NCBI GenBank assembly: GCA_900659855.1
Contig: CAACVI010000023.1
Coordinates: 186,001 to 250,000 of the forward strand
From: Candidatus Desulfarcum epimagneticum
GTDB lineage: Bacteria; Desulfobacterota; Desulfobacteria; Desulfobacterales; CR-1
Length of the DNA stretch: 64,000 bases
Direction: 5' to 3'
Shown: positions 53,018-58,208 of the stretch, piece by piece
Position numbering within the stretch: position 1 is the first letter of the stretch
Layout of the letters: every line of letters begins with the position of its first letter
Program-made: the position numbers and the translations under genes
Notes under the pieces: generated by a model
Database searches by the model: none
What the model was told of the DNA's origin: nothing
The model's input: the letters and a program-made list of their open reading frames with translations, nothing else

Positions 53018-53114
53018 AAACACACGAACGCGCTGAATTTTTCCTGTCTTCGCCCGGACGCCGCGCATGCCGTTGGAAGCGTCGCGGGGCCGGGCCTCTT
53101 CAAAGGAGCGAAAA

Positions 53115-53663
53115 ATGAAAATGAGAAAACGGAGCGTGCTTTTGATCGCGATTTGCCTGTGCTGGGCGTTTTTTGCCTCGGCCGGGGAGGTCAAGCATTC
53201 ACAGCCTGAGGCGGCGGTGGAGGGAATCGGCGCCGGAGAGGCGATTGATCTTGCCAACCAGTGGCGCTGGACGCACAAGGACATCACCAGTTATGTCACC
53301 TCCCATGAGCTGTTTTTTGAGTTTCCATCCGGGGAGATGGCCATGATAACGCTTCCGAAAAACGAGATGTTTGTCTCCATCGCGCCGTACATCACTTACA
53401 CGCACCGCTGAACTACCCATTATTTCTCCTCCTGTCAGGGGGAGCTGGCCGAAAAAACATTTCAGGTGAAGGCGGTGGGCGCTGACGGAAAAACCGTCAT
53501 GGACGAAACGGTCCAAACTTTAAAAAACGGCTTTTTGGATATCTGGCTTCCGAGAGATCAGCGTTTTATGGTGACGATTTCGGGAATGGACCGCGAGGCC
53601 CGGGGCGTCATCGAAACATTCAGCGAAAGCAAGACGTGCGTGACGACGTTTCGGCTGGAGTAA
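53115..53663 (+). CDS. CueP-like periplasmic copper-binding protein, predicted selenoprotein (TGA at 53409)
   Basis: The frame from ATG 53115 (AAAGGAG upstream) to TAA 53663 has one internal TGA at 53409-53411, codon 99. Residues 1-23 form a signal peptide (SVLLIAICLCWAFFASAGE). FVSIAPYITYTHR, then TGA, then TTHYFSSCQGEL, then GFLDIWLPRDQRFMVTI and CVTTFRLE, align with the CueP family, in which THDC-FYHSLTTC-QGEL has Cys at precisely the TGA position. The other conserved Cys residues (107 and 176) are present. CueP binds Cu(I)/Cu(II) with three Cys in the periplasm and supports copper resistance. A SECIS-like hairpin follows (53426). Selenocysteine is inferred; a decayed gene or sequencing error is the alternative. 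Confidence 0.72.
53409..53411 (+). other. In-frame TGA, probable selenocysteine codon
   Basis: TGA replaces the codon of a conserved copper-ligand Cys; the 84 codons after it remain open and family-like. Confidence 0.68.
53426..53444 (+). promoter_or_regulatory. Bacterial SECIS-like stem-loop
   Basis: CTCCTCCTGTCAGGGGGAG folds into an eight-pair stem (one G-U pair) with a three-base loop GTC at 53434-53436. The loop starts 22 bases after the TGA, inside the 16-37-base range of bacterial SECIS elements, and has a GU pair of bases at the loop start, as in the fdhF element. Computation of free energy was not done. Confidence 0.65.
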
Positions 53664-53886: not shown

Positions 53887-54276
53887 TCATTCGATGCCGT
53901 ACAAAAAACGTTCAACCGGAACGCCGAAAAGCCGGCTTAATTTTTTTCCAATGTCTTTGCTGATCGGCCGGCGATTATGCTCCAGATCAGAAATTTTTTG
54001 CCGGCTCCATGTCTCGCCAAGACGGCGGCCCAATTCCGCCTGGCTCATGCCGCGATTTTCCCGGTAGATTTTCAGAATTTCTCCAGGAGTCGTCTGAGAC
54101 CGCGTCTCCTGATACCACGCCGTGCTGAAGATATCGACCCATTCCTCATCCGGTTCGAGGGCCTCAACATCCTGACCAAAGGTCTGCGTCAGGTATTGCA
54201 GAAGTTCAGAAGGAATATCGCCTTTAACCTCAAATAAGGTATGATCAGTATGGGGCTTTTTCACGACTACCAACAT
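53887..54276 (-). CDS. XRE-family HTH regulator, HigA-like
   Basis: This 129-residue protein has an N-terminal domain with FEVKGDIPSELLQYLTQTFG and a C-terminal helix-turn-helix RENRGMSQAELGRRLGETWSRQKISDLEHNRRPI (about 70-105). The type is common as an orphan antitoxin-like regulator. A toxin partner is not seen; only a basic 47-codon frame precedes it. GAGGTG before the ATG at 54276 supports the start. It lies within ten bases of the MITE. Confidence 0.72.
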   Translation of the reverse strand: MLVVVKKPHTDHTLFEVKGDIPSELLQYLTQTFGQDVEALEPDEEWVDIFSTAWYQETRSQTTPGEILKIYRENRGMSQAELGRRLGETWSRQKISDLEHNRRPISKDIGKKLSRLFGVPVERFLYGIE

Positions 54277-54440
54277 AATACACCTCAATTGCAACGCTTT
54301 TTTTCTCGTGCCGCCAACAGGCGACCCATGATCCGCCTAAATGTCTGATTCCCATTGGTTTTAAAAATTTTGCCGGCGATATTTCGTCGGGGTGCGCCGG
54401 GGAGGAATCTCCCATTGCGTTTTCTCATCAGGCGTCTGAA

Positions 54441-57400
54441 TTAACCGGCCTCAATCATTTTTATTTCGCCATCGCTCAGGTCATACAATTTATAAATCGC
54501 AGAATTGATTTTTTTCTCGTTCATTTCGATAGTCGCTTCCAGGTTCCGGAGGTCTTCTGCCAGCGCCACGGTCTGCTTTTTTAGACCGGAACGCTCCGTT
54601 TTCCGTAAAACAAGAAGATGATTGAGCAATTTTCCGGCGGTAAATTTTGCGGTTATATGAGTGGTCCTGGCCGTATGGCTCCATTGGGCGTGAATCCATT
54701 TCGCGTCTTTTTCATCCTCAAATATTCCCTCGATGATGGGGACTCCGCCAACAAGAAAGGAAAGCTCCCCATCTTCTTCCTTCGCTTCCAGAGCGACTCC
54801 GGCAGACAAATAAGACTGGACATCTTCAAGTTTTTCCGAGGCGATCTCTTTGTTTTTTGCTTCCGCCCATATCCATGTTATTTTTCGTTTGTCCGGTTCG
54901 GTCTGGGAACTTTTTAATCGACGCTCCACCCGCAGAATTTTATCCCGGCGGGATGTGTGAAGCTCCTGAAGTTTTTTTGCCAGCGTTCCGACTTTTTGCT
55001 TTTGTTCTTCCGAAGCGTCGGGGATAGGGAGAGGGGCGATGAATTGTTTGTTGGCCTCATAAAATCCGCCCTCTTTGGATTTTGCGATCCTTTTAAAAAC
55101 AAAATCAATGACGGGAGCGTTTAGCAGACCAAGCAGGTACCATGAGTCCTCAACATTTTGGGGCAAAATTCCGTTTACTCTGACATTGTTGAAGTAAAAC
55201 TCTGCTTTTGAGTCGTTGAAAACTCTCATTCCCTGAACTGTCTGGGCCACGCCCAATTTTGTCATTTCTTGTTTATCAATATTTTGGTTTCTCCCAAAAC
55301 GGTGCCATTCGATGTCATTAAATTTGCTTTTTTCCCTCCCCCTGAGCTTTTTTTCATGGGCTTTCAAAAATTCCCATCCCCTGGGATATCTTGTCTTCAT
55401 TTCCCTTTCCGTCCATAAGCGGGGTTTTTTTCCGGAAAGATCGTAAGGGAAAAGCAGATGAATTTCAGTTTCAGGGACAAGATAGCGTTTTGCGTCCGTT
55501 CCGGACACAAGCGGCTTCATGAGTTCGTCCTCAATCTCCACCTCAACGCCCTTAAGGGGATTTTTGACATGCTCGTATTGATTCGGGGCGGTTTTTTTCA
55601 GGTGGTAAATATAATCGGCGCTCGTCTGTATTCCAACGGTGATCCCTTTGCTGAATTTTTCCAGCGTTTTGTTATTGTTTTTCAATCGGTTGACCAAAGC
55701 CCATTCATCGGCCGGCATCAGGGTCCACGCTTTTGACATGGGGAGTTCATCAAATTTAAACTGATCGGTTTTTTCATTTTCCCAATCGATTTGAGAGACA
55801 TCGCCGTCAGCCGATGGAAAATATCGAACTCCGCTGTTTTCCGATCCGGAAAAAAACTGAATGGCGGTATAAGTGGAGGCCTCTTCAAAAACCTGATGGC
55901 TTTTGAAGTCCACCCACCGGTCAAATTTTCGGTTTTTCAGCAGCCATTGCCTCAATCCCTGCCCGTACTCATTCACCAGCCATACATTGGGGGCGATGTA
56001 GCCCATTTTTCCTTTTGAATGAAGAAGACCGACCCCTTTCTCAATAAAAGGAAGATACAAATCAAAATTGCCTGTCTGAGCGCTGTGGTAGAGGGGGCGG
56101 TTTTGATCTGTTTTCGCGCTGACTAAAAATTCGGCGACCGGCCCTTGGATTTTTCTGAAATTTTGCAGTTTCACATAAGGCGGATTCCCGATGACAATAT
56201 CAAAGCCCCCGTTTTGAAAAACTTCAGGGAAAGCCTTTTTCCAGTCAAACGCGTTGATTCTTTCTTTTTCCTCTTTTGAAAGCGGATTGTTTTCTCTGAG
56301 CTGGTAAAAGCGACTGTCAACCAGACTGTTGCCGCATCGAATACGCGCGTCAAGCGAACAAAGGGGACTGCGAGGTGAAGCGGTGCGCAGCCAGAGGGCC
56401 AGGCGGGTTATTTCCACAGATTCGGGGTTGAGGTCGACTCCATACAGATTTTTTGAAAGTGTTTCATTTGTAAGGATTTCGATATCAGACATGGAGCCCT
56501 GTTCATTGATTCTCAGACGTTCATCCACGATCCATCTCCGTTCCCGGACCACTCTGTCAAACGCCTGAATTAAAAAAGCTCCGGACCCGCAGGCAGGATC
56601 CAAAATTTTCAGATTATTCACTTTTTTTTCGTATTGTTCAAGAAAAGAAAGATAGTCTTTGACATGCCGCCTGTTTTTTTTCCGCTTTCCCGGAATTCTT
56701 CCATACTTCATGGCGATATCTTCTTCCGTCACAGGAGGCATCGTGTCATAACCGAGTTCTTTTTTGATCTCATCAAGACGAGCCCCAATGGTTTCATCCA
56801 CAATATATTTTGTGACCCACTCGGGTGTGTAATAAACCCCGTTGGTTTTCCTTTTGGAAAGCCTCATGAGGGAATCGCGCCCATCGGCGTCCGCCTCCAT
56901 GATCTCCAGCTCAGTGATGGACTGCTCAAATATCCGGCCAAGTGTGTAAAGGCCGATGTTGGGTCTTAAGCTGTCTTCCCTTATCCCGAAATTGTATTTC
57001 GACGAAAGGAAAAGGAGTGTTCCCGGGTTTGACAAAACGCTTTTTGGGTTCATGCCCTGATTTTTGGCGCAAAAAACACCGGTCGGAATTTTCAGGTTTT
57101 CAAGCTCAGCGTCTTCCTCAAATATTCCGCCGTTAAAACGATTCATTTTGTGTTCCCGAAAACACGTTCCGTCCCGCATGGAGACAAATAATTTTTTCAC
57201 CCTTGTCCAAACGATATCGTCATCCTCATCATAATCCTCGTCATTGCTTTCCTTAATCAGCAGGTCGCGCAGCAGATTGCGGGGAAAATTTAAGGCGCTC
57301 CCCATGTCTTCGCAGAACATGATAAAGATGAATCTGTCCAGTAACCGTTGCGCCAGGCGAACCAGCTTTCCACGCCCGCCTTTGAAATTCGAGTTGCTCC

Positions 57401-58208
57401 CGATCAGAGTCTCGTATAGTTTTTTTCTGTAATCAGCGTATTCTGAGTAAAATTCTTTCTCCAGGCTTTTTTCATGAACCCCCTGATCCACGATTTTTTT
57501 TTCCAGGGGACTTCTTCCGGACTTTGTCAGAAGCTGATCGGAATGGAACAGTTTCCAGAAAAAGAAACGCTGCCACGCGCCTTCCTCCGAGTCATCAGTC
57601 AGCGCGATATCCTGATAGGCGCCTCGTTTTTTTTGGATGATAAATCTTTGATATTGAAAAGGAATTGTTTTTCGATAGTATAAACGAAACTCGTTCATAT
57701 CGGTCACAATGCCCCATGTGGGTTTCACAGGCTCGTTTCCGAAAAGTCTCTCGAAAGACATTTTCAGATAGTCGGCGCATTGTTTTACCGGGCTTCTGTT
57801 ATTTCCCTTTCGATTTTGTTTGTGATCCAGCCCGGATGAAATGTCTTTAAATTCGCACAGGACTTGGGGTATGCGGGAGACGGGGCTGGTTTCTCCAAAA
57901 AAACCCAAGGCCAAATCCGCTTTGCCGGTCCCGCCTTTTTGGCCGGCCCCTTTTATGGAAAACTGGGGATGGAGGCTGTAGCCCTTGTCTTTGCATATTT
58001 CCCCCGAGGCGCTGTATCCCCAAATTTTTTTAAAAAAAATATCGACAAAGGCGCTTTCAGCCACGGTCTCTTTCTGAAAGTCTTTGTCAGCCCAGGCTTC
58101 CAGTCGTTTTTTAATGTCCGGGTCCACATTTTCCCGGTAGTCCTTGAATTCAAGAGTCCAGCAGGACATTAAATACCCTTTGCTGAACAGAGGCTGGTGA
58201 TCAGACAT
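54441..58208 (-). CDS. Type IIG (Eco57I-like) restriction-modification enzyme
   Basis: This 1255-residue protein combines nuclease, methylase and specificity. An N-terminal PD-(D/E)xK site has KADLALGFF (Asp98) and VLCEFKD (Glu119, Lys121). Motif I (ILDPACGSGAFLIQAF) is near residue 536 and motif IV (IVIGNPPYVKLQNF) near 674, which gives N6-adenine methylation. A TaqI-like specificity domain (about 860-1040) and a long helical C-terminus (LAKKLQELHTSRRDK) follow. The start could be 58208 or, with AAAGGG upstream, 58169. It restricts foreign DNA in one polypeptide. Codon use is more A/T-rich than the left part of the window. Confidence 0.88.
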   Translation of the reverse strand: MSDHQPLFSKGYLMSCWTLEFKDYRENVDPDIKKRLEAWADKDFQKETVAESAFVDIFFKKIWGYSASGEICKDKGYSLHPQFSIKGAGQKGGTGKADLALGFFGETSPVSRIPQVLCEFKDISSGLDHKQNRKGNNRSPVKQCADYLKMSFERLFGNEPVKPTWGIVTDMNEFRLYYRKTIPFQYQRFIIQKKRGAYQDIALTDDSEEGAWQRFFFWKLFHSDQLLTKSGRSPLEKKIVDQGVHEKSLEKEFYSEYADYRKKLYETLIGSNSNFKGGRGKLVRLAQRLLDRFIFIMFCEDMGSALNFPRNLLRDLLIKESNDEDYDEDDDIVWTRVKKLFVSMRDGTCFREHKMNRFNGGIFEEDAELENLKIPTGVFCAKNQGMNPKSVLSNPGTLLFLSSKYNFGIREDSLRPNIGLYTLGRIFEQSITELEIMEADADGRDSLMRLSKRKTNGVYYTPEWVTKYIVDETIGARLDEIKKELGYDTMPPVTEEDIAMKYGRIPGKRKKNRRHVKDYLSFLEQYEKKVNNLKILDPACGSGAFLIQAFDRVVRERRWIVDERLRINEQGSMSDIEILTNETLSKNLYGVDLNPESVEITRLALWLRTASPRSPLCSLDARIRCGNSLVDSRFYQLRENNPLSKEEKERINAFDWKKAFPEVFQNGGFDIVIGNPPYVKLQNFRKIQGPVAEFLVSAKTDQNRPLYHSAQTGNFDLYLPFIEKGVGLLHSKGKMGYIAPNVWLVNEYGQGLRQWLLKNRKFDRWVDFKSHQVFEEASTYTAIQFFSGSENSGVRYFPSADGDVSQIDWENEKTDQFKFDELPMSKAWTLMPADEWALVNRLKNNNKTLEKFSKGITVGIQTSADYIYHLKKTAPNQYEHVKNPLKGVEVEIEDELMKPLVSGTDAKRYLVPETEIHLLFPYDLSGKKPRLWTEREMKTRYPRGWEFLKAHEKKLRGREKSKFNDIEWHRFGRNQNIDKQEMTKLGVAQTVQGMRVFNDSKAEFYFNNVRVNGILPQNVEDSWYLLGLLNAPVIDFVFKRIAKSKEGGFYEANKQFIAPLPIPDASEEQKQKVGTLAKKLQELHTSRRDKILRVERRLKSSQTEPDKRKITWIWAEAKNKEIASEKLEDVQSYLSAGVALEAKEEDGELSFLVGGVPIIEGIFEDEKDAKWIHAQWSHTARTTHITAKFTAGKLLNHLLVLRKTERSGLKKQTVALAEDLRNLEATIEMNEKKINSAIYKLYDLSDGEIKMIEAG

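Follow-up and report, generated by a model that had tools for sequence, protein, structure and literature searches.

An in-frame TGA triplet in a gene for a CueP-like protein raises the question of whether translation stops at this codon or continues with the insertion of selenocysteine (Sec) and, if Sec is inserted, what it might do in a protein known for handling copper. The gene lies in a 64,000-nucleotide stretch of DNA, referred to here as the window, from Candidatus Desulfarcum epimagneticum, a bacterium of the sulfate-reducer type.

The cueP reading frame and its family

The coding sequence occupies positions 53115–53663 of the plus strand, from the ATG at 53115 to the TAA at 53661–53663, and encodes 182 residues with Sec at position 99. 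A ribosome-binding site, AAGGAG, can be read directly from the sequence at 53103–53108 of the same strand, 6 nt before the ATG. The frame contains a single in-frame TGA (53409–53411) followed by 83 sense codons before the TAA; the initial annotation had counted 84 open codons, a claim that nearly held. The first residues, MKMRKRSVLLIAICLCWAFFASA (53115–53183, plus strand), are predicted to be an N-terminal export signal, an inference made by eye from the translation. Some of the homologous genes, L026 and L038, have a lipobox-like start (LPAC, LAGC), and species may conceivably differ in whether the Sec-containing CueP is a lipoprotein or a soluble protein.

The window protein is a member of the CueP family, as shown by curated cut-offs and by its predicted fold; copper binding is not among this evidence. 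It scored 119.5 bits against Pfam PF21172 (CueP; cut-off 27) and 144.4 bits against NCBIfam NF038094 (CueP_fam; cut-off 60). The 104.7 bits obtained against NF038095, the Salmonella-type CueP, stayed below the cut-off of 195, and this criterion was not met. A phmmer search of the Protein Data Bank gave the Salmonella CueP structure (4gqz) as the sole sequence match (E 3.5e-20), with the TGA opposite the Cys of the THPC motif. The AlphaFold2 model had a pLDDT of 90.5, with values above 90 from about residue 31 and low confidence for the N-terminal export segment, and Foldseek with this model found 4gqz (E 1.3e-15) as the only PDB entry below 0.001.

The UGA codon aligns with what we take to be Cys96 of Salmonella CueP, counted along the 4gqz alignment by the literature numbering. 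Around it, also on the plus strand, are His97 (53403–53405), His102 (53418–53420), Cys107 (53433–53435; Salmonella Cys104), whose codon doubles as part of the apical loop of the putative SECIS element described below, and Cys175 (53637–53639; Salmonella Cys172). All five positions, including Sec/Cys99, are invariant in an alignment of 28 CueP sequences if U is counted as C, and the three cysteine positions of the family are thereby occupied by two Cys and one Sec. The claims that the TGA stands opposite a conserved CueP cysteine and that the two other cysteines are kept have therefore held. The further claim that a copper-ligand cysteine is replaced held only in part: the residue of Salmonella CueP shown by mutation to be needed for copper resistance is C104 (PMC13201067), the equivalent of which is kept in the window protein as Cys107. 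Residue 99 as a copper ligand is plausible and remains a possibility, without binding or mutational data.

The TGA codon and the downstream hairpin among homologues

We found CueP in 6 of 395 genomes of the phylum sample, with exactly one TGA in five of the six, and in 12 of 389 genomes of the class sample, where all 13 genes had exactly one TGA. A scan of GTDB contigs with an alignment-based query gave 30 cueP loci, unlike a contig scan with a single protein as the query, which found none. Once duplicates had been removed, the homologue set comprised 26 distinct TGA genes, plus 14 in which TGC or TGT stands at the site; these codons share a single alignment column, where no other stop codon occurred. 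Homologues with random stop codons had been named in advance as a refutation of the Sec reading, which passed this check. Nearly all of the 26 TGA forms belong to Desulfobacterota (deltaproteobacterial) lineages, namely Desulfobacterales, Desulfobulbaceae, Syntrophaceae, Desulfohalobiaceae and deltaproteobacterial MAGs whose placing is uncertain. Relatives with Cys, about 34–49% identical, are found in Smithella-type bacteria, in Deinococcota and in a small number of MAGs from other phyla. Because the same codon recurs in 26 distinct genes, a TGA by chance is excluded. A sequencing error at 53409–53411 was also considered, and is excluded by the relatives sharing the TGA, although no raw reads were used.

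Three of the homologous loci deserve separate mention. Genome G728 has two distinct cueP genes, L060 and L067, and the shared TGA codon is present in each. The gene L051 (CP070697.1, Desulfobacterales bin589) has an extra in-frame TAG about 57 codons before the Sec TGA; this TAG (CAC TAG GCG) corresponds to Gln in its closest relative, L067, and might reflect sequencing error, decay or another recoding.

Downstream of the UGA, with a spacing of 22 nt, lies a hairpin at 53426–53444 of the plus strand (UCCUCCU-GUC-AGGGGGA). Its stem consists of seven conserved pairs (53427–53433 with 53437–53443) plus an outer C-G pair (53426/53444), and its loop is GUC (53434–53436). With a predicted energy of about −11 kcal/mol (−11.4 for 53426–53444; −10.9 in the bSECIS check), an 8-bp stem, the GUC loop and the 22-nt spacing, it satisfies the published limits for bacterial SECIS elements, which are a loop of 3–9 nt with G first, a spacing of 16–37 nt and an MFE of at most −7.5 (PMC13188914). 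The compact stem-loop with suitable spacing in the initial annotation was thus confirmed. Its support comes from conservation and not from the fold of one sequence: folded alone, the window stem-loop did not outperform shuffled versions of that stretch (z 0.04), and the hairpin is significant because it is conserved across homologues.

At least six of the seven pairs are present at the exact place in all 26 Sec forms, with the loop GUC in 25 and GUA in one, whereas the 14 Cys forms have only two to five of the seven pairs there and none has the hairpin. Across the TGA forms there is hardly any variation in codons +6 to +11, counted from the TGA (TCC TCC TGT CAG GGG GAA). When pairs of genes encode the same residue, the codon is identical in 86.5% of cases within the hairpin codons versus 45.3% elsewhere for the Sec forms, and in 45.0% versus 42.4% for the Cys forms. 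Standard pairing is found in 98.4% of the stem pair cells of the Sec forms; one stem pair is broken in each of L031, L058 and L060. Two compensatory changes were identified: C-G became U-A in L038 and L040, without altering either encoded residue, and U-G became G-C in L026 and L050, where a Ser and a Gly were together replaced by Ala. L058 appears to be an intermediate of the latter change, with Gly to Ala (GCG) completed, Ser to Ala (GCC) not, and one U-C mismatch. Compared with synonymous recodings of the same peptide, stem stability had a mean z of −1.90 in the Sec forms and −0.24 in the Cys forms. The generic bSECIS filter was passed by 24 of the 26 Sec forms and by 7 of the 14 Cys forms; its constraints are permissive and separate the two poorly, whereas the position-specific hairpin does separate them. 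An Rfam search with the window locus and five homologues gave no RNA family above the gathering score. We consider it very likely that the hairpin at 53426–53444 is a Sec-specific, covarying SECIS element, as inferred from sequence comparison without read-through data.

The protein constraint appears to be alike on both sides of the TGA. Among 300 pairs of TGA forms, the median dN/dS was 0.17 upstream of the TGA and 0.23 downstream of the hairpin; both are rough values, because saturation affects a large part of the synonymous sites (143 of the 300 pairs after the hairpin). Purifying selection continues downstream of the TGA. The CueP tree requires two changes between Sec and Cys, and a single Sec origin was not rejected (AU p 0.119), with most branches being weak. 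One origin of the Sec form is likely, as inferred from the hairpin sequence common to the Sec forms.

Selenocysteine machinery and the decoding of UGA

The absence of the sel genes from the genome had been set beforehand as a refutation, and the Sec reading passed this check as well. The 99.7% complete genome of the organism encodes selB (373 bits), selA (573 bits), selD (368 bits, with its own TGA) and tRNA-Sec (76.1 bits, against a gathering score of 47). Counting this genome, selA or selB exceeded the cut-off in 17 of 18 genomes with a Sec-CueP; the exception, L027, is a MAG with neither selA nor a full selB. Both genes are lacking in 8 of the 14 genomes with a Cys-CueP. The Sec form goes with the machinery, and the Cys form also persists in some genomes having it.

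Could the UGA be a plain stop, in a pseudogene or through an assembly error inherited by the relatives? Standard annotation would indeed end the gene at 53411, and the extra upstream TAG in L051 suggests that some copies may be decaying. Against this stand the 26 divergent copies with the same codon, the purifying selection after the TGA, the frozen hairpin and the full Sec machinery, which leave this explanation all but excluded. The UGA might alternatively encode another amino acid, or serve as a regulated stop with the short form as the main product. Some short product is to be expected, since UGA recoding by SelB generally competes with termination. The short form would, however, be without Cys107 and Cys175, and homologues with a sense codon at this site have only Cys. 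Further evidence against it comes from selA and selB of the same genome, the frames of which contain no internal UGA, and from selD, which has UGA only at its known Sec site. We regard this second alternative as very unlikely.

The TGA in 26 homologues, the selection after it, the hairpin restricted to Sec forms and the machinery in the genome together indicate, with high probability, that cueP is a true selenoprotein gene with a SECIS element. SelB, guided by the hairpin at 53426–53444, would decode UGA codon 99 as Sec, giving an exported 182-residue CueP with Sec at the Cys96 equivalent. This conclusion is inferred from sequence; no peptide has been seen. It also corrects the gene, which in ordinary annotation falls apart into two short frames.

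Possible function and comparison with known systems

Salmonella CueP binds copper, which it receives from ScsB/ScsC, and is a proposed loader of SodC (PMC13201067). In Salmonella CueP, the reduction of Cu(II) is also accompanied by disulfide formation. SodC was absent from the genome of the organism and, in all, from 17 of the 18 Sec-CueP genomes; a SodC-loading role is therefore unlikely for Sec-CueP in these genomes, which opens the question of what CueP does where its known client is missing.

The neighbouring genes offer some hints, despite neighbourhoods that vary. In L074 (G385), the neighbours of cueP encode a TlpA-type redoxin and a membrane protein of the CcdA/DsbD type, and genes for a DUF302 protein and for a YHS copper ATPase come next. 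In L078, a TlpA-like redoxin starts where cueP ends, and in L025 a Cu-ATPase lies close to cueP. The link to CcdA/TlpA rests on two loci. By eye, genes resembling a thiol peroxidase and a cytochrome c peroxidase lie near L031 and L033, respectively. The window cueP is solitary, without adjoining copper or redox genes. Nearby on the minus strand are a small helix-turn-helix gene (53887–54294), next to cueP, and a gene for a 1255-residue protein (54441–58208) that looks like a restriction-modification enzyme of the Eco57I type (NPPY motif). Upstream of cueP, neither operator-like inverted repeats of at least 12 bases nor an informative match in a promoter search was found. Copper ATPases occur in all 13 genomes tested and DsbD-type proteins in all eight tested, which is weak support because both are common.

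These observations might be combined into a working model, which is the reading of the function that we favour. In the periplasm, the selenolate would form the CueP copper site together with Cys107, Cys175 and His97/His102, holding Cu(I). Sec-CueP would give an electron to Cu(II) or to oxidants, thereby forming a selenenylsulfide bond, which a membrane thiol-reducing relay of the CcdA/TlpA type would reopen. The outcome would be protection of the anaerobe from copper without loading of SodC. The function as a whole, copper binding combined with selenol/thiol redox chemistry and reset by CcdA/TlpA, is an inference as apt to prove wrong as right, without data on copper binding, reduction or the role of residue 99. 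The claim in the initial annotation that a selenol changes redox behaviour and copper affinity likewise stays an inference. We lean slightly against the bolder reading, in which Cu(I) binding and Cu(II) reduction by a Sec-Cys cycle are coupled to the CcdA/TlpA relay, with a selenolate in the copper site, as a copper defence of anaerobes most of which lack SodC. If this is true, Sec-CueP would be a naturally occurring copper-selenolate protein with a fold other than that of thioredoxin.

The main rival on function is a purely redox-catalytic Sec, in a selenol-thiol oxidoreductase or peroxidase for which copper is not the main substrate. An oxidoreductase role is presumed for the majority of known selenoproteins (PMC13188914), and the TlpA-type redoxin and CcdA neighbours, the peroxidase-like genes and the missing SodC would fit this view. 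Against it, every Cys and His of the putative copper site is kept, and Cu-ATPases are close to cueP in L025 and L074. The redox-only alternative remains possible.

The 119 prokaryotic selenoprotein families listed in a 2026 review (PMC13188914) include neither CueP nor PF21172 nor NF038094, and the literature searched, with RefSeq outside the scope, gave no relevant link between CueP and selenocysteine. The claim that no Sec-containing CueP has been described held within this literature. Sec-CueP is thus likely to be an unlisted selenoprotein variant of a known family, made by a known recoding mechanism, and the comparative evidence for this additional selenoprotein family is strong.

Salmonella enterica CueP (4gqz) shares with the window protein the fold (TM 0.75–0.87), the aligned Cys104 and Cys172 and the THxC/U motif, but the Cys96 position is Sec in the window protein, which falls outside the NF038095 group and comes from a genome without the SodC client. 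The Cys-containing CuePs of Deinococcota, Smithella-type bacteria, Corynebacterium and a Bacteroidota MAG belong to the same family by curated cut-offs (PF21172/NF038094), yet they have TGC or TGT at the site and neither the hairpin nor the frozen codons. Nature thus supplies both a Sec and a Cys version of one defined site in a copper protein of solved fold, which makes the role of selenium in periplasmic copper handling by anaerobes directly testable. The selD gene of the same genome (L054, C12:51993–52922) also has an in-frame TGA, with a 7-bp hairpin and a GGA loop 20 nt after the UGA. In both genes the UGA precedes a 7-bp hairpin whose 3-nt loop starts with G, whereas SelD is another protein, with another hairpin sequence, and a known selenoprotein. 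Finally, several metal-related selenoproteins, including the mercuric transport protein, SaoL, MbdU, the SO_0444 Cu/Zn efflux protein and a CopZ-like 2Fe-2S protein (PMC13188914, Table 1), resemble Sec-CueP in having Sec at a metal-handling Cys, although they belong to other protein families.
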